This document shows, one piece after another, positions 1,518 to 8,586 of a stretch of DNA of 64,000 nucleotides. Below the pieces are notes generated by a model that was not told the DNA's origin, did not search any database, and saw only the letters and a program-made list of their open reading frames with translations. Numbering within the stretch: the first letter of the stretch is position 1; each line of letters begins with the position of its first letter. Made by a program: the position numbers and the translations under genes. This DNA is from Streptomyces sp. AV19 (lineage in GTDB: Bacteria > Actinomycetota > Actinomycetes > Streptomycetales > Streptomycetaceae): contig NZ_JAEAMR010000022.1 in assembly GCF_015999245.1 (NCBI RefSeq), positions 337,703 through 401,702 on the forward strand, read 5' to 3'.

Positions 1518-4277
1518 TCACAGCCAGCTGTTGAACCGGCGGATGTACCAGGTCTTGACCACCTGGGTCAGCAGGCAGTAGGCGAGCAGCGTGCCGGCCA
1601 GCCACGGGAAGTAGCCGAGCGGCAGGGCCTGCATGCCCAGCGCCGTCGCCAGCGGCGAGAACGGCAGGGCGATGCCGACGGCCATCACCAGCGCGGTCAT
1701 CAGCAGCACCGGCGCGGTGGCCCGCGACTGCAGGAACGGGATCTTCCGGGTGCGCAGCATGTGCACGACCAGCGTCTGCGTCAGCAGTCCCTCCACGAAC
1801 CAGCCCGACTGGAACAGCGCCTGATGCCCCTCGCCGTTCGCCCCGAAGACGTGCCACATCAGCAGGAAGGTGGTGATGTCGAAGACCGAGCTGGTCGGGC
1901 CCATCACGAGCATGAACCGGCCGATCCCGCGCGCGTCCCAGGTCCGCGGCCTGCGCAGGTACTCCTTGTCCATCCGGTCCCACGGCGTGGCGAGCTGCGA
2001 GATGTCGTAGGCGAGGTTCTGCACCAGCAACTGCATGGCGAGCATCGGCTGGAAGGGGATGAAGGCGGAGGCCACCAGCACCGAGAAGACGTTCCCGAAG
2101 TTCGAGGAGGCCGTCATCTTGATGTACTTGATGGTGTTGCCGAAGGTCTGCCGCCCCTGGAGCACCCCGCGCTCCAGGACCGTCAGGTCCTTCTCCAGCA
2201 GGATGATGTCGGCCGACTCCTTGGCGATGTCGACCGCGGTGTCCACGGAGATGCCGACGTCCGCGTCGCGCAGCGCGGCGGCGTCGTTGATGCCGTCGCC
2301 GAGGAAGCCGACCGTGTGGCCCTCGGCCTGGAGGGCGCGCACGATGCGGGCCTTCTGCACGGGGTTCGCCTTGGCGAAGACCGTGGTCGTGCGGGCGAGC
2401 TCGCGCAGGGCGGCGTCGTCCAGGGTGTCGATCACCGCGCCGGTGACGACCTCGCCCACGTCGATGCCCACGTCCGCGCAGACCCGGGCGGCGACCAGCT
2501 CGTTGTCGCCGGTGACGACCTTGACGGAGATCCCGTTGTCCGCGAGGGCGCGCAGCGCCTCGGCCGCGTCCTGCTTCGGCGGGTCGAGGAAGGCGAGGAA
2601 GCCGATGAGGGTCAGGCCGTCCTCGTCCGCGACGCCATACGCATCCCGCTCGGCGGTGAACGTGCGGGTCGCCACGGCCAGGACGCGCAGGCCCTGCCGG
2701 TTGTTGTCCTCGGCGGTGCGGGTGACGCGGCGGCGCAGCTCGTCGGTGAGCGCGATCCGCTCGCCGGCCTCGGTCATGTGGGTGCACAGGGCGAGGACCT
2801 CCTCGACCGCGCCCTTGGTGATCAGACAGTGTTGATCAACCGCATGCTCGGTGGGCGGTCCGGTGACGTCGTTGCGGCCCAGGACGACGGACATCCGGCG
2901 GCGCGCGAAGTCGAAGGGGATCTCGTCGATCATCGTGAAGCGCGCGTCGACGACAACCTCCTCGGCCTCGAGCACGCGGTCGATGACGGCCTGGTCCATC
3001 AGGTTGCGCAGCCCGGTCTGGAAGTGGCTGTTGAGGTAGGCGTACTCCAGCACCTCGCCGTCCTCGCGGCCGTGCGCGTCGAGGTAGCGGTCGAGGACGA
3101 TGCGGTCCTCGGTGAGCGTGCCGGTCTTGTCCGTGCAGAGGACGTCCATGGCGCCCAGGTTCTGGATGGCGTTGAGCCGCTTGACGACGACCTTGCGCTT
3201 CGCCATCGCGACGGCGCCGCGCGCCAGGTTGGTGGTGACGACCATGGGCAGCATCTCGGGCGTGAGCCCGACGGCGACGGCGACCGCGAAGGTGAACGCC
3301 TCGGCCCAGTCGCCCTTGGTGAATCCGTTGATCGCGAGGACGACGGGGACCATCACCAGCATGAAGCGGATCAGCAGGAAGCTGACCTTGCGGACGCCGG
3401 TGTCGAAGCTGGTCCGCGGGCGCTCGCCGACGAGGGAGCCGGCCATGGAGCCGAAGTAGGTGTCCGCGCCGGTGGCGACGACCACGCCGGTGGCGGTGCC
3501 GGAGGTGACGGAGGTGCCCATCAGGCAGAGGTTGTCGGCCTCGACGGGGTCGCTGGTGGTGCGCTGTCCGTAGTCGTGGGCACGGGTGTCCGCCTTGGCC
3601 ACCGGGAGGGACTCGCCGGACAGCGCGGCCTGGCCGACCATGAGGTCCTTGGCCGTGAGCAGCCGCAGGTCGGCGGGGACGAGGTCGCCGGCGGCCAGGC
3701 GCACGATGTCGCCCGGGACCACCTGCTCCATCGGGATCTCCACGGTGGCGGGGTCGGCGCCGCGGCCGGCGCGGCGCGTGACCGCCGTCGTGGTGGTGAC
3801 CAGGGCCCGCAGCGCGGCGGCCGAGCGGCCCGAGCGGTACTCCTGCCAGAACCGCAGCACCGCGCTGACCAGCACCATCGTGGCGAGAATGGCGATTCCG
3901 GGGTCGAAGGGCTCTTCGTCGGCGACCTGGAGCCACTGCCAGAGCATGACGGCGTCCAGGACGAGCAGGACCAGGATGAACGGGTTCCAGAACGCCCTGG
4001 CGAACTGGACGAACCAGCGCGGGGCGCGCTCCTGCTCGACGGCGTTGGAGCCGTGGCGCTCCAGGCGCTCGGCGGCCTCGTCCTGCCGCAGCCCCTGGGC
4101 GGTGGACCGGTGGTGCTGCAGCGCCTGGGCGGCCGGCTGGGAGCTGACGGCGGCCAGGCGCTCGGCGACGGTGCGGGTACGGGCCTCCAGTTCGGCGGCC
4201 CTGCGCTCGCGGCGGGTGCCGGGGGTGCGGCCGCCCGGCGGGGCGAGCTTCTGGGGGGTGAGGGTGGTGTTGGTCAT
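1518..4277 (-). CDS. mgtA: Magnesium-translocating P-type ATPase MgtA
   Basis: A 919-residue P3B-type ATPase that imports Mg2+ using ATP. The phosphorylation motif DKTGTLTEDR lies near residue 382, the TGES-like actuator motif (SGESLPV) near 215, the PEMLP ion-pathway segment in a membrane helix near 340, and the hinge GDGINDAAALRDADVGIS near 660. Six C-terminal membrane helices follow. Length matches the family. The ATG is preceded by GGAGAAGGG about 7 bases upstream. The gene leads mgtA-mgtC, and the roughly 540-base upstream leader, with a short ORF and direct repeats, suggests post-initiation control. Confidence 0.96.
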   Translation of the reverse strand: MTNTTLTPQKLAPPGGRTPGTRRERRAAELEARTRTVAERLAAVSSQPAAQALQHHRSTAQGLRQDEAAERLERHGSNAVEQERAPRWFVQFARAFWNPFILVLLVLDAVMLWQWLQVADEEPFDPGIAILATMVLVSAVLRFWQEYRSGRSAAALRALVTTTTAVTRRAGRGADPATVEIPMEQVVPGDIVRLAAGDLVPADLRLLTAKDLMVGQAALSGESLPVAKADTRAHDYGQRTTSDPVEADNLCLMGTSVTSGTATGVVVATGADTYFGSMAGSLVGERPRTSFDTGVRKVSFLLIRFMLVMVPVVLAINGFTKGDWAEAFTFAVAVAVGLTPEMLPMVVTTNLARGAVAMAKRKVVVKRLNAIQNLGAMDVLCTDKTGTLTEDRIVLDRYLDAHGREDGEVLEYAYLNSHFQTGLRNLMDQAVIDRVLEAEEVVVDARFTMIDEIPFDFARRRMSVVLGRNDVTGPPTEHAVDQHCLITKGAVEEVLALCTHMTEAGERIALTDELRRRVTRTAEDNNRQGLRVLAVATRTFTAERDAYGVADEDGLTLIGFLAFLDPPKQDAAEALRALADNGISVKVVTGDNELVAARVCADVGIDVGEVVTGAVIDTLDDAALRELARTTTVFAKANPVQKARIVRALQAEGHTVGFLGDGINDAAALRDADVGISVDTAVDIAKESADIILLEKDLTVLERGVLQGRQTFGNTIKYIKMTASSNFGNVFSVLVASAFIPFQPMLAMQLLVQNLAYDISQLATPWDRMDKEYLRRPRTWDARGIGRFMLVMGPTSSVFDITTFLLMWHVFGANGEGHQALFQSGWFVEGLLTQTLVVHMLRTRKIPFLQSRATAPVLLMTALVMAVGIALPFSPLATALGMQALPLGYFPWLAGTLLAYCLLTQVVKTWYIRRFNSWL

Positions 4278-4579
4278 GGCGGAACCCTTCTCCGGGCACG
4301 ACGGTGCGACGGCATGGCGTCACGGCTGTTACGGCACGCGGGCAGGCCGAGGCGGCATCGTGGCTCGGAACGGTGAGCGGAATCGCGCGATGCGGACGGT
4401 CAAGTCCCGGCATTACGGGAGGAGTTGGACCGGATCGCGAAAAAAATGGGGACGACGGCCCGGGGCGGGGCCGACTGAAGAAGGGGAAATCACGCGACAG
4501 CGCGGAGGGCCGGACGCGTCACAAGGACGTCAACGGCCCGGAATACCGAGTCGGTTCGGCAGGGGCGACGACGAAGACG

Positions 4580-4645
4580 TCAGCCGATCGTGACCGGGAC
4601 GAGCACACTGTGGCGAGGACTTCCCTCGGGACTCCGACTGGTCAT
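4580..4645 (-). CDS. Candidate mgtA leader peptide, 21 residues
   Basis: A short ORF beginning MTSRSPEGSPRHSV and ending in TIG lies in the mgtA leader. Its ATG follows GAGGAGGTGATC, an unusually full match to the 16S rRNA 3' end, at good spacing. It holds three prolines and two arginines. Between its stop and mgtA are about 300 bases without another gene but with a T7 tract (minus strand, opposite 4440-4446). Proline-containing leader peptides control mgtA in enterobacteria; a similar role here is inference. It could also be a free small protein. Confidence 0.5.
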   Translation of the reverse strand: MTSRSPEGSPRHSVLVPVTIG

Positions 4646-4678
4646 CCCGATCACCTCCTCGCTCGAACGAACAGCGTG

Positions 4679-4694
4679 GGTGCCGCACGGCACC
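4679..4694 (-). promoter_or_regulatory. Small hairpin in mgtA leader
   Basis: GGTGCCG and CGGCACC form a perfect 7-base stem with a 2-base loop, about 34 bases upstream of the leader ORF start. It should lie in the 5' untranslated leader of mgtA or close to the transcription start. Function unknown. Confidence 0.35.
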
Positions 4695-4731
4695 TTTCGC
4701 GCCCCAGCTTGCCACACACGCTGGAGAAGCG

Positions 4732-4758
4732 GGTAAATCGGAGGTAAATAGAGGTAAA
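4732..4758 (-). promoter_or_regulatory. Triple TTTACC direct repeat, PhoP-box-like
   Basis: On the minus strand three TTTACC hexamers are spaced 10 and 11 bases apart, one per helix turn, within units resembling GTTTACCTCT. The arrangement is like the Streptomyces PhoP box, which is built of 11-base direct repeats of the type GTTCACC. The array lies 86 bases upstream of the mgtA leader ORF and just after the terminator of the upstream protease gene, a natural operator position for the mgtA transcript. The regulator is inferred and not shown. Confidence 0.4.
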
Positions 4759-4763
4759 CAGAC

Positions 4764-4800
4764 GCGGGGCGGGACCTGGCCGAAGCCGGTCCCGCCCCGC
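4764..4800 (-). terminator. Terminator hairpin after protease gene
   Basis: A perfect 13-base stem (GCGGGGCGGGACC with its complement) and an 11-base loop lie 21 bases beyond the stop of the protease gene at 4822. There is no T tract, which is usual for Streptomyces terminators. Confidence 0.7.
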
Positions 4801-4821
4801 GCCCACCGGGATCCGGGAGGA

Positions 4822-6654
4822 TCAGGGGGAGACCAGCGGCGTCCACGCACCGAGACGGTTCGCGGCCGTCCGGTCGTAGTACGCGGTCTCGCCGTCGCTC
4901 CAGCGGACGACGAGGTCGTCGCGCCGGCCCGCGGGCCCGCCGAAGTCACCGGCGGCCATCAGGGCGGCGCCCCGGTACGAGGCGTTGGCGCCCTGGAGCG
5001 TGTACGCGGCGGCCGGCAGTCCGGCCTTGGTCACGCCCGCGTAGGTCTCCAGGCGGCCGTTGTCCCGGCGGACCAGCAGGTCGGCGTTGCCCTTGCCGGA
5101 CACCTGGGCGGTGGCGAGGGCGAGGACGGAGCCGCCCGCCCACTTCGAGCCCTTGCCGCCCGGCACGAGCTTCTTCTCGCCGCCCAGGCGGGAGGCGGTG
5201 GTGCCGGAGTACAGGTCCACCTCGCCGTCGTCGAAGCGGACGACCAAGTCGTTCGCCTTGCCGGGGGAGTTGTACGCGCCGGCCGTGAAATGCGTGGCGT
5301 GCTTCCAGGTGTTGTTGGCCTTGACGAGCGTGGTCTCCTTGCCGGTGGAGCCGGCGCGGACGTCGCTGAACACGCTGACCTTGCCGTTGTCCCAGCGGAC
5401 GACGAGGTCAGCGGTGCCGCCGCCGTTGAACTCGCCGGCGGCGACGGCCCCGACCTTCGCCCAATAGGGGTTCTGCCCGCGGACCGTGACCTCCCGGCCG
5501 AAGTGGCCCTTGCCGTCGCCCGCGTAGGAGGAGATCTCGCCGTCCCGCCACACGACGAGCAGGTCGTCGCGGCCGTCGCCGGTGAAGTCGCCCGTGACGA
5601 GGTGCCGGGCGTCCTTCCAGTTGGCGACGCGGTAGGGCAGTCCGGCCTTGACCGGGCCCTGGAGGTCGCCGGGTACGGGCTTGCGGTCGGCGACGGCGTC
5701 GGCGTAGAGGCGCTGGATCTCGGGGCCGTACACCGGGGAGTAGCTCACCCAGTCGCTGTTGCCGTCGTCACCGCCGCCGTTGTAGCCGCCGACGTTGCCG
5801 ATGACGTCGCCGGTCTTCTTCTTGGCGTCGTAGTTGGTGATCCACGGGCCGCCGGAGACGCCCGGGTAGTAGCCGGCGCATTCCATCTTCAACTGACGGA
5901 AGTACGGGCCCCGGACGGTCGGGACCGTACAACTCACGGCCTTCTGATCCGGGTTGGCGGACTTCGGATACCCGTACACCGTGACGGTGTTGGCCCAGCG
6001 GGGCGTGCCGGTCAGGCGCAGGCCGCCGCCGACGCGGTCCTGGAGCTTCTTGCCCTTGTCGGCGGGGTCCACGCGGACGAACGCGAAGTCCAGGTCGGAG
6101 TCCGCCGCCTTGGAGTTGCTCCGGTAGCGCTCGTCGACGAAGGTCTTCCTCACCTGGAACGCGCCGAACGGCTGGTGCGCGGCGTCCTTGCCCTTGCGGA
6201 ACTGCGGCACGAAGATCGCCGAACCGTCCGTCTTCATGGGCCTCGCGCAGTGCGCGGCGGTCAGCACCAGGTTGCGCCCGGCGCTCTGTACGACGCCGCC
6301 GCTGCAATAGGTGGCTCCGGAGGGGCCCTTGAGGAAGAACGTTCCCACCACGGGGATGCCGTCCCCGAGGCTGCCCTTCTTGACGTTCTTCGGCGCCGCG
6401 GCGGCCGCGCGCGGCGAACGCGCCACGCCGGAGCGCTGCTTCGCGGCGGACCCGGCGTCGACGGGCCGGGCCCCGGCCATGCGCTCGGCCGTCCAGTAGG
6501 AGAGGTCCGGGGACGCGGAGGCGGACGAAGTGGGCACGGGGGCGGACGGCGTGGGCCCGGGGGCGGCGACCGCCGTCGTCGCGGTGGCCGTCGTGCCGCA
6601 GGCGGCCATGGCCAGGGCTATGGAGAGGGTCCTGGAGTGTCTGGATGAGGTCAA
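4822..6654 (-). CDS. Secreted trypsin-like serine protease with FG-GAP/VCBS repeats
   Basis: A 610-residue exported protein. A signal peptide with hydrophobic core SIALAMAACGTTATATTAV is followed by a Pro/Ala/Ser spacer. The chymotrypsin-fold domain carries the catalytic triad: His in LTAAHC (about 134), Asp in DSDLDFAF (about 190) and Ser in GVSGGPW (about 266). From about 340 there are repeats with DGRDDLLVVWRDGE-like and RWDNGK-like cores, as in FG-GAP/VCBS propellers, probably for binding substrate or surface. The start codon is TTG with a weak upstream AGTGAG; the same start context is kept in the paralogue at 6787-8586. Substrate unknown. Confidence 0.88.
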   Translation of the reverse strand: MTSSRHSRTLSIALAMAACGTTATATTAVAAPGPTPSAPVPTSSASASPDLSYWTAERMAGARPVDAGSAAKQRSGVARSPRAAAAAPKNVKKGSLGDGIPVVGTFFLKGPSGATYCSGGVVQSAGRNLVLTAAHCARPMKTDGSAIFVPQFRKGKDAAHQPFGAFQVRKTFVDERYRSNSKAADSDLDFAFVRVDPADKGKKLQDRVGGGLRLTGTPRWANTVTVYGYPKSANPDQKAVSCTVPTVRGPYFRQLKMECAGYYPGVSGGPWITNYDAKKKTGDVIGNVGGYNGGGDDGNSDWVSYSPVYGPEIQRLYADAVADRKPVPGDLQGPVKAGLPYRVANWKDARHLVTGDFTGDGRDDLLVVWRDGEISSYAGDGKGHFGREVTVRGQNPYWAKVGAVAAGEFNGGGTADLVVRWDNGKVSVFSDVRAGSTGKETTLVKANNTWKHATHFTAGAYNSPGKANDLVVRFDDGEVDLYSGTTASRLGGEKKLVPGGKGSKWAGGSVLALATAQVSGKGNADLLVRRDNGRLETYAGVTKAGLPAAAYTLQGANASYRGAALMAAGDFGGPAGRRDDLVVRWSDGETAYYDRTAANRLGAWTPLVSP

Positions 6655-6786: not shown

Positions 6787-8586
6787 TCAGGGGGAAACCA
6801 GCGGGCTCCACGCCCCCAGGCGCCCCTCCCCGCTCCCCGCGTAGAGCGCGGTCTCGCCCTTGCCCGCCCAGCGGACCAGCAGGTCGTCCGCCCGCCCGGC
6901 CGGGGCGGTGAAGGCGCCCGCGACCATCGGGGAGTCCCCCCGGTACGCGCGGTTCGCGGACATCAACGTGGCCCGGGACTTCAGGTCCTTCGTGGCGGCG
7001 ACGGTCTGCAGCTGCCCGTCCCCCCAGCGGACCACCAGCCGCGCCGCGCCCCCGGAGAACTGCCCGGTCGTGAGGGCCGCGGCCCCCTTCCAGGTCGGGC
7101 CGCTCGCCGCCAGCCGGCGCTCCTTGCCCGTGCCCGAGCCGCTCGCCCCGGTGTGCAGGGTCACCTCGCCGTCGCGCCAGACGACGGCCACGTCGTTGGC
7201 CCGGCCGGAGGTGTACTTCCCGGCGGTGATCCGGGACGCGTCCTTCCACATCGAGCCGCTCTTGGCGACCACGTGCTCCTTGCCGGGGCCGGACGCGCTC
7301 CCGTCGGCGAAGACGCTCACCTTGCCGGTGGGCTTCCCCTTCGTGTCGGTCCAGACGACCATGAGGTCGGAGCGGCCGTTGCCCGTGAAGTCGCCGGCGG
7401 TGATGGTCTGGATCCGCTCCCAGGCGCTGTGCTTGCGCATCAGCTGCCGCCCCGCGCCGAAGCCGCCCTTCCCGTCGCCCGGGTAGAGGGTGGCCTCGCC
7501 GTCGCGCCAGACCACCACGAGGTCCTCGCGGCCGTCGCCGGTGAACTCGCCGGCGGCCAGGTGCCGGGCGAACGACATCGTGCGGGCGCTCTCGGGCAGC
7601 CGGGGCCCGGACAGCGAGCGCAGCGGGCCGCGCGAGGGCGCCCGGCCGGCGACCGCGTCCGCGTAGAGGGCCTGGATCTCGCGGTCGTAGACCGGGGAGT
7701 AGCTCACCCAGTCGTGGTTCTGGTCGTCGCCGCCGCCGTTGTAGCCGCCGACGTTGCCGATGACGTCGCCGGTCTTCCGCTTCGCGTCGTAGTTGGCGAT
7801 CCACGGACCGCCGGAGACTCCGCCGTAGAAGCCGCCGCACTCCATCTTCAGCTGCCGGAACTTCGGTGCGCGGCTCGTGTCCACGGTGCAGCTGACGGCC
7901 TGCTGGCCGGGGTTCTTCGACTTGGGGTAGCCGTACACGGTGACCGTGCTGGTCCAGCGCGGGGTGTTCGTCAGCCGCAGCCCGCCCGTGCGGCTCTCCA
8001 CCTTCGCGCGCTGCGCGTTGGGGCCCACGCGGACGAACGCGAAGTCCAGGTCGGAGTCCGCCTGCTTGGAGTTGCTGCGGTAGCGGGGGTCCATGAAGAC
8101 CCGCTGCACGGGGAAGACCCCGAACGGCTGGTGCGCCGCGTCCTTGCCCTTGCGGAACTGCGGGACGAAGATCGTCCGCCCGTCCGCCTTCAGGGACTTG
8201 GCGCAGTGGCCCGCGGTCAGCACCAGGTTCTTGCCCGCGCTGCGCACGACGCTCGCGCTGCAGTAGGTGGCCCCGGAGGGCCCGGCGGCGAAGAACGTGC
8301 CGACCGAGGGGATGCCGCCCCCGAGCGTGCCCTGCTTGACGTTGCGCGGCGCGGCGGCGGCCACGCCCGGCGACCGCAGGGCGGCGGCGGGCGGGGCCGT
8401 GCCGCGCCCGGCGTCGACGGGCTGCGCGCCGGCCAGCCGCTCGGCCGTCCAGTACTGCTCGGCGCCGCGCGCGTCGGGCGTCGCGGCCGGAGCGGCGGCA
8501 GCCGGCACGGCGACGGCGGCCGTGCCGCAGGCCGCGAGGCTCAGGGCTATGGAGAGGGTCCGGGACCACGTGGACGTGGAGGTCAA
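6787..8586 (-). CDS. Secreted trypsin-like serine protease with FG-GAP/VCBS repeats, tandem paralogue
   Basis: A 599-residue paralogue of the 4822-6654 product, collinear from the signal peptide (SRTLSIALSLAACGTAAVA) to the last repeat (LGAWSPLVSP). The triad is His in LTAGHC (about 125), Asp in DSDLDFAF (about 179) and Ser in GVSGGPW (about 254). TAGHC replaces the more usual TAAHC. The propeller part has diverged more than the protease part. It also starts with TTG, after a GGTGAG five bases upstream. The conserved block just before the start (a CCCCTA sequence, then GTGAGTCGC) is shared with its neighbour, showing that the duplication included the promoter-proximal region. Confidence 0.88.
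   Translation of the reverse strand: MTSTSTWSRTLSIALSLAACGTAAVAVPAAAAPAATPDARGAEQYWTAERLAGAQPVDAGRGTAPPAAALRSPGVAAAAPRNVKQGTLGGGIPSVGTFFAAGPSGATYCSASVVRSAGKNLVLTAGHCAKSLKADGRTIFVPQFRKGKDAAHQPFGVFPVQRVFMDPRYRSNSKQADSDLDFAFVRVGPNAQRAKVESRTGGLRLTNTPRWTSTVTVYGYPKSKNPGQQAVSCTVDTSRAPKFRQLKMECGGFYGGVSGGPWIANYDAKRKTGDVIGNVGGYNGGGDDQNHDWVSYSPVYDREIQALYADAVAGRAPSRGPLRSLSGPRLPESARTMSFARHLAAGEFTGDGREDLVVVWRDGEATLYPGDGKGGFGAGRQLMRKHSAWERIQTITAGDFTGNGRSDLMVVWTDTKGKPTGKVSVFADGSASGPGKEHVVAKSGSMWKDASRITAGKYTSGRANDVAVVWRDGEVTLHTGASGSGTGKERRLAASGPTWKGAAALTTGQFSGGAARLVVRWGDGQLQTVAATKDLKSRATLMSANRAYRGDSPMVAGAFTAPAGRADDLLVRWAGKGETALYAGSGEGRLGAWSPLVSP

Follow-up and report, generated by a model that had tools for sequence, protein, structure and literature searches.

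A conserved short open reading frame ahead of mgtA as a candidate Mg2+ leader in Streptomyces, with related reading frames ahead of corA and behind actinobacterial M-boxes

Introduction

The control of Mg2+ uptake by leader peptides has been a subject of study in enteric bacteria. Short upstream open reading frames (uORFs) lie there in the mgtA and corA leaders of E. coli and Salmonella (MgtL and CorL; PMC11282234, PMC11552253), and early acidic residues are reported to matter both in E. coli MgtL (Glu2/Asp4; PMC11282234) and in Salmonella MgtQ (Asp2/Glu5; PMC8092293). For actinobacteria, the sole case that our literature search found in print is the mycobacterial uORF2 (Rv1805A). D'Halluin et al. 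(PMC12810186; RNA 2026) describe it as controlled by an M-box, with a conserved proline at position 7, call it specific to mycobacteria and suggest a role with PE20-PPE31; the main text of that study does not mention Streptomyces. The search returned no report of a comparable leader in Streptomyces, and an RNA-motif survey of 50 genomes, several Streptomyces among them, does not name corA or mgtA in its main text (PMC11109978). Here we describe a uORF upstream of mgtA in a 64,000-nucleotide (nt) stretch of Streptomyces sp. AV19 (assembly GCF_015999245.1, contig NZ_JAEAMR010000022.1, positions 337,703 to 401,702 of the forward strand; hereafter the window, from genome G000), together with its relatives ahead of corA and behind M-boxes.

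As described in PMC12810186, uORF2 shares with the uORF of the window a strong Shine-Dalgarno (SD) sequence, a short reading frame with a conserved N-terminus, and a place before Mg2+ genes. The two differ in that the window has no M-box, its uORF precedes mgtA and mgtC, and a hairpin involving the SD is built from the uORF's own codons. The SPxxSP motif of uORF2-type uORFs reads SPEGSP in the window and mostly MSP[DE][RG]SP in relatives; Pro7 is present in most MSPxxSP relatives, and a three-residue insertion in the window's clade shifts the prolines to 6 and 10. The architecture is also that of MgtL and CorL, short uORFs in mgtA and corA leaders (PMC11282234, PMC11552253). The early acidic and proline residues described for MgtL (PMC11282234) may have counterparts in the many mgtA relatives that open with MSPD or MSPE, and in Glu7 with Pro6 and Pro10 of the window. 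MgtQ, as presented in PMC8092293, likewise combines a short ORF, early acidic codons, a stem-loop and an Mg2+ transporter; unlike the leader studied here, it is intergenic between mgtC and mgtB, is eight amino acids (aa) long and frees the ribosome-binding site of mgtB. The initial annotation had likened the ORF of the window to the mgtA leader of Salmonella, and it is in the architecture that we see this likeness.

The mgtA leader in Streptomyces

The initial annotation proposed an mgtA leader peptide at 4580-4660, a span that also takes in the SD, on the strength of a short ORF with an exceptionally complete ribosome-binding site about 300 bases ahead of mgtA. These observations were borne out. 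The uORF has 21 codons on the minus strand (ATG at 4645-4643, stop codon TGA at 4582-4580) and ends 302 nt before the mgtA ATG (4277). Its SD, AGGAGGTGATC, matches over 11 bases the complement of what we take to be the 3' end of 16S rRNA, and the GGAGG within it ends 8 nt before the uORF ATG. Prolines stand at codons 6, 10 and 18, and Glu7 is the only acidic residue. The downstream gene was identified as mgtA by TIGR01524 (1277 bits, cut-off 611). The elements of the leader and operon are as follows.

4580..4645, minus strand: leader uORF, MTSRSPEGSPRHSVLVPVTIG followed by TGA; ORF reading, kept in Streptomyces mgtA loci
4649..4659, minus strand: SD of the uORF, AGGAGGTGATC; the same sequence scores 11 nt in relatives
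4613..4662, minus strand: conserved hairpin with the SD, start codon and codons 1-11, outer stem GCGAGGA/TCCTCGC and inner stem TCGGGA/TCCCGA; folding, alignment and model R1
4278..4579, minus strand: the 302 nt from uORF to mgtA, rich in C and poorer in G (C/G 1.51); possibly a region of Rho-dependent control
1518..4277, minus strand: mgtA, Mg2+ P-type ATPase of 919 aa; TIGR01524
690..1475, minus strand: mgtC (MgtC/SapB family), directly 3' of mgtA; PF02308

A search for MgtA in the named genomes retained 80 loci, and a broad pattern for the core of the leader, AGGAGGTGNTCGGG, was run on 51 of them (L022-L072). The core was found in 44, all of the Streptomyces type. The seven loci without it were a Streptomyces locus whose contig extends just 224 nt upstream (L056), four from other phyla (L065 and L067-L069) and two from Mycolicibacterium (L070 and L072). 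Of the 45 Streptomyces-type mgtA loci, 44 are thus preceded by the core (SD, start and first ~11 codons), 43 of them with the start codon itself, a recurrence beyond chance; a narrower core pattern had no match in the remaining 29 loci (L073-L101). The 43 peptides have 13-21 residues and open with MTSRSPEGSP, MSPEGSP, MSPERSP, MSPDRSP, MSPDRSL (5/43) or MSPSPSPDG. Counting the window and excluding L043, a stop codon follows within 10 codons of the core in all 44 ORFs, while the other two frames reach a stop within 12 codons in only 16/44 and 17/44, and shuffled sequences in 15%. Where the ORF carries an insertion, of 9 nt in the window's clade and of 12 nt in L036, the frame is preserved. Peptide, start region, frame and stop are all kept, and the absence of such conservation in close relatives, which the initial annotation had named as the finding that would speak against a leader peptide, was clearly not observed.

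Model R1, applied to 394 genomes of the class, gave strong matches (at least 59.9 bits) in seven genomes, all of the window's genus; six were upstream of mgtA and one (L104) upstream of mgtC alone. A whole-leader DNA search, a method too insensitive for the purpose, returned five of 100 genomes including G000. A first genus pattern matched 16 of 295 genomes, and the leader was seen only in G000, G060, G258 and G280, the other 12 matches being judged chance from the matched letters. As far as comparison of sequences can tell, the ORF is a conserved leader of mgtA-mgtC.

In the fold of the mgtA core, GCRAGGA...TCCTYGC encloses TCGGGA...TCCCGA and the AUG sits at the loop; the minimum free energy lies at z -3.2 to -4.4 in six of seven folded cores. 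In the hairpin alignment, from which L036 was excluded for both pairing and covariation, 98.6% of cells are paired versus 28-53% when the structure is slid along the sequence. The single clear pair change, from G-C to A-U, converts Arg to Cys in the peptide.

Downstream of the uORF, C exceeds G in 44/44 intervals up to mgtA. The mean C/G is 1.48 there, 1.20 over the opening 900 nt of mgtA and 1.06 further upstream. This composition would fit use of the interval by Rho. Control by Rho is described for MgtL and CorL (PMC11282234, PMC11552253), whereas here only the C-rich interval is consistent with it. The run of seven T residues that the initial annotation saw between ORF and mgtA does exist (4446-4440); the longest T run varies from 2 to 7 across the 44 intervals and reaches 7 only in the window, and on this lack of conservation we reject the tract as a terminator.

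Related leaders ahead of corA and behind M-boxes

We fetched the 30 best-matching corA loci. Scanned in the same way as the mgtA loci, as a background for strong-SD short ORFs, 16 of the 30 showed one such uORF at a distance of 253-424 nt ahead of the CorA match, all of the related type. A looser scan of the same 30 added only unrelated short ORFs (e.g. L140, L161) and no further leader. In Streptomyces the corA peptide mostly reads MD[RP]S[RH][PS][CGA]S[TSI], with Asp at residue 2 in 75 of 79 loci, and a CorA homologue lies downstream in 79/79. Model R2, for the corA leader, matched 116 of 121 Streptomyces genomes, once in each. In a sample of the class (n=197) it matched 17 genomes, namely 16 of the genus and one, weakly, of another family, and no genome of the genus was among the non-matching genomes listed.

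The corA leader also carries a hairpin. In an alignment of 68 distinct rows, which had been fitted to the model, nine pairs change on both sides versus 2.4 in shuffles and 1-3 in slid structures, and none of 500 shuffles reaches any of five covariation measures. The SD is nearly wholly paired across these rows (unpaired probability 0.023). Its hiding strand, GCUCUUCCG, is complementary to a downstream CGGAAGAGC-type element: the longest downstream match is at least 8 nt in 53 of the 68 rows, 50 of them at that element, and at most 6 nt in nine, and the mean complement is 8.1 nt versus 6.2 nt in shuffles. Some corA loci, such as L146, differ on both sides of the complement together. The downstream complement and these paired changes therefore suggest that corA leaders may adopt two mutually exclusive folds.

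L146 belongs to the genome of the window (G000, contig C79). At -424 from the CorA match it has a corA-type leader, MDPSRPCSTDSSPVPPLRTRAS, with the hairpin and a matching downstream element, and its uORF begins MDPSRP. Certain mgtA and corA uORFs have GATCGAAGTC...TGCAG in common, which we take as a sign that the two may be of common origin.

The M-box (RF00380), which controls Mg2+ genes, precedes related uORFs in other actinobacteria. It was found neither in the window nor, under stricter filters, in G000; from 4000 to 5000 of the window no Rfam 15 family was detected at E up to 1, RF00380 included, and on this ground an M-box in the window was rejected. When the window and selected loci were scanned against Rfam 15, the uORF itself matched no family. 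In L070 (Mycolicibacterium mgtA) and L114 (corA) the uORF is directly preceded by RF00380, and a search of the class found nine M-boxes in five of 148 genomes. A strong-SD uORF stands within 105 nt behind all nine. Eight of these uORFs have SP at residues 6-7, the exception being L254; they read MSPx[DH]SP (5/9) or MSSxxSP (3/9), and M-box loci with PE/PPE genes read MSPxDSP. From their place, SD and Pro7 we infer that the M-box uORFs read here are the published uORF2, as far as PMC12810186 describes it.

A further pattern, TGAGTCC-N7-AGTCC behind a GAGG-type SD, matched 13 distinct sites in 10 of 296 genomes; it had been designed from sites already seen, which make up seven of the 13, and the reversed pattern was unmatched in the rows listed. 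An M-box lies upstream of all six new sites and of the five other non-Streptomyces sites, and both Streptomyces sites are without one. The genes behind the six new sites encode PE (L260), PPE (L265), Nramp (L262, L273) and MgtE (L268) proteins by Pfam, L261 being assigned by eye. In actinobacteria, both mycobacteria-like and others, and with L250, L251, L254 and L256-L258 left out of the downstream-gene assignments, M-box-linked uORFs precede mgtA, corA, mgtE, Nramp and PE/PPE genes.

Weak matches of model R1 (at most 31.9 bits) made up 32 of its 39 rows. Of 23 inspected, we kept the seven in which a strong-SD uORF of the same type was readable (L109, L111, L113, L114, L117, L118 and L119); the other 16 (L110, L112, L115, L116 and L120-L131) were judged by eye to be chance. 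The kept uORFs precede corA in L113 and L114 (CorA by Pfam) and in L118 (CorA by eye), and a 60-aa predicted membrane protein in L109, L111, L117 and L119. We read the 60-aa gene in L109 and L111 and also in L253, a locus overlapping L117, and assume it in L119 from likeness. An M-box stands in L111, L117 and L119 but is missing from their relative L109, which keeps both uORF and membrane-protein gene and appears to have lost it. Aligning four peptides gave a result too gappy to use. As a separate observation, small predicted proteins follow shortly behind several uORFs, with 60 aa in L109, L111 and L253 and 71 aa in L262 and L273, where they precede the Nramp gene.

Discussion

Our preferred reading, with a probability of roughly 0.7, has the leader act in cis on the mgtA-mgtC operon: the extent of uORF translation would set mgtA expression, gated by an SD hairpin or, elsewhere, by an M-box. 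The uORF, with its very strong SD, would be translated from just behind the promoter, and the hairpin formed by its own first codons would partly cover that SD. How far translation of the uORF proceeds would then determine the amount of transcription or translation that reaches mgtA. At low Mg2+ the hairpin might open more readily, ribosomes might pause or drop off at the Ser-Pro/acidic start, or both, and expression would rise; at high Mg2+ transcription would terminate in the C-rich interval, most probably through Rho, and expression would stay low. In other actinobacteria an M-box would gate the same kind of uORF, and Streptomyces mgtA and corA would use SD hairpins, with no M-box where examined. 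The most likely role of the gate with its uORF is that of an attenuator; the response to Mg2+, its direction and the dependence on Rho we infer from sequence. Common to loci with and without an M-box is a strongly initiated uORF with an early Ser-Pro, often near an acidic residue, ahead of Mg2+-uptake genes.

Several observations weigh against this reading. One mgtA leader (L043, 240 nt before the MgtA match) keeps the hairpin with ATG changed to ATA and an AGT insertion, and L036 folds no better than its own shuffles (z -0.02). Covariation of the mgtA hairpin is weak, with one pair changed on both sides and a score reached by 41 of 500 shuffles, because the sequences hardly vary. The SD of the mgtA uORF has a mean unpaired probability of 0.38 over 45 loci and would therefore be hidden partly, not fully. 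Complementarity between uORF and interval showed no conserved excess in these 45 leaders (6.49 versus 6.44 nt shuffled), which gives no sign of two mutually exclusive folds of the MgtL kind for mgtA; unlike in MgtL as described in PMC11282234, an indication of alternative folds was seen here only in the related corA leaders. Among corA loci, 14 of the 30 lack the uORF, model R2 found no leader in five of the 121 Streptomyces genomes, and 13 of 79 uORFs have no proline among their first 10 residues. Nor are the prolines of mgtA uORFs invariant, the second being replaced by Leu in 5/43. Behind M-boxes, finally, the AUG hairpin has a mean stem of 4.6 versus 3.8 base pairs over 21 rows with no row at P <0.05, and we reject it as a general trait of these uORFs. 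The peptide motif is kept there, which favours a role for the peptide. The initial annotation expected the prolines to slow translation; they are present at codons 6, 10 and 18, but their variability in both leaders argues against simple proline stalling, and such slowing is not supported.

Among the alternatives, the one that survives best is a sensor of the MgtL type, in which a nascent acidic/Pro start destabilises the ribosome at low Mg2+, and abortion of translation switches the RNA to a read-through fold. We regard it as possible, at somewhat less than even odds. An early acidic residue beside proline recurs (MSPDRSP, MSPEGSP, MSPGDSP, and MDPSRP ahead of the genome's own corA), such residues matter in the accounts of MgtL (PMC11282234) and MgtQ (PMC8092293), and the SP motif persists at M-box loci without a significant AUG hairpin. 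Against it, the sole acidic residue of the window peptide is at codon 7, the corA uORFs without an early proline fit poorly, and our search of the mgtA leaders showed no second fold to shift to.

A pure RNA element, in which Mg2+ or a protein would bind to the hairpin and the uORF would be incidental or a mere read-out, is unlikely. Conserved nucleotides at wobble positions, the Arg/Cys swap that tracks the G-C/A-U pair and the hairpin of L043 without its ATG would all suit such an element; conservation of frame and stop, in-frame insertions and retention of the SP motif in M-box loci without a significant hairpin would not. Less probable still is the proposal made for Rv1805A (PMC12810186), a small protein that acts in trans in Mg2+ transport. 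Members with variable C-termini precede at least five unrelated gene families, and the SD pairing in Streptomyces falls partly within the coding sequence. Attenuation by supply of Ser, Pro or Cys is the least credible reading, since the targets are Mg2+ genes, there is no single-codon run, and Cys/Arg/Gly/Ala as well as Pro/Ser/Leu interchange, even though Pro codons and the Ser codon AGT, rare in Streptomyces, recur.

Beyond the operon leader itself, we see an even chance that these uORFs form one actinobacterial family of Mg2+ leader peptides (SPxxSP / DxSRPCS) acting in cis on unrelated uptake genes with an exchangeable gate, the M-box in mycobacteria and relatives and the SD hairpin in Streptomyces mgtA and corA. 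If this is true, Rv1805A would be a leader peptide and not a PE20 effector, an alternative reading for the mycobacterial uORF2 peptide. For Streptomyces, the leaders are candidates for Mg2+ control of mgtA-mgtC and, in almost all genomes searched, of corA. Short uORFs before the same two transporters, mgtA and corA, in distant bacteria are also suggested, probably of independent origins.

Neighbouring features

Two further elements were noted by eye upstream of the uORF.

4679..4694, minus strand: small upstream hairpin, GGTGCC-GTGC-GGCACC; by eye
4706..4716, minus strand: promoter-like TGTGGCAAGCT; by eye, with TGGCAWGCT in all ten relatives printed

A hairpin comparable to the first is visible in several mgtA leaders and absent from L071. 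The promoter-like TGGCAWGCT sits ~45 nt upstream of the uORF SD; if this is the promoter, the window's leader would therefore have no space for a 169-nt M-box. Ahead of the promoter region, TTTACC occurs three times at a spacing of 10-11 bases (4758-4732, minus strand), possibly as an operator, with only a partial counterpart in L022. A strong GC-rich inverted repeat (4799-4765, minus strand) separates the upstream gene from the mgtA leader and probably marks the end of the upstream transcription unit. Beyond it lie two adjacent, similar ORFs on the minus strand, 4822-6654 (610 aa) and 6787-8586 (599 aa), which by eye resemble secreted proteases with C-terminal repeats and are likely a tandem duplication.
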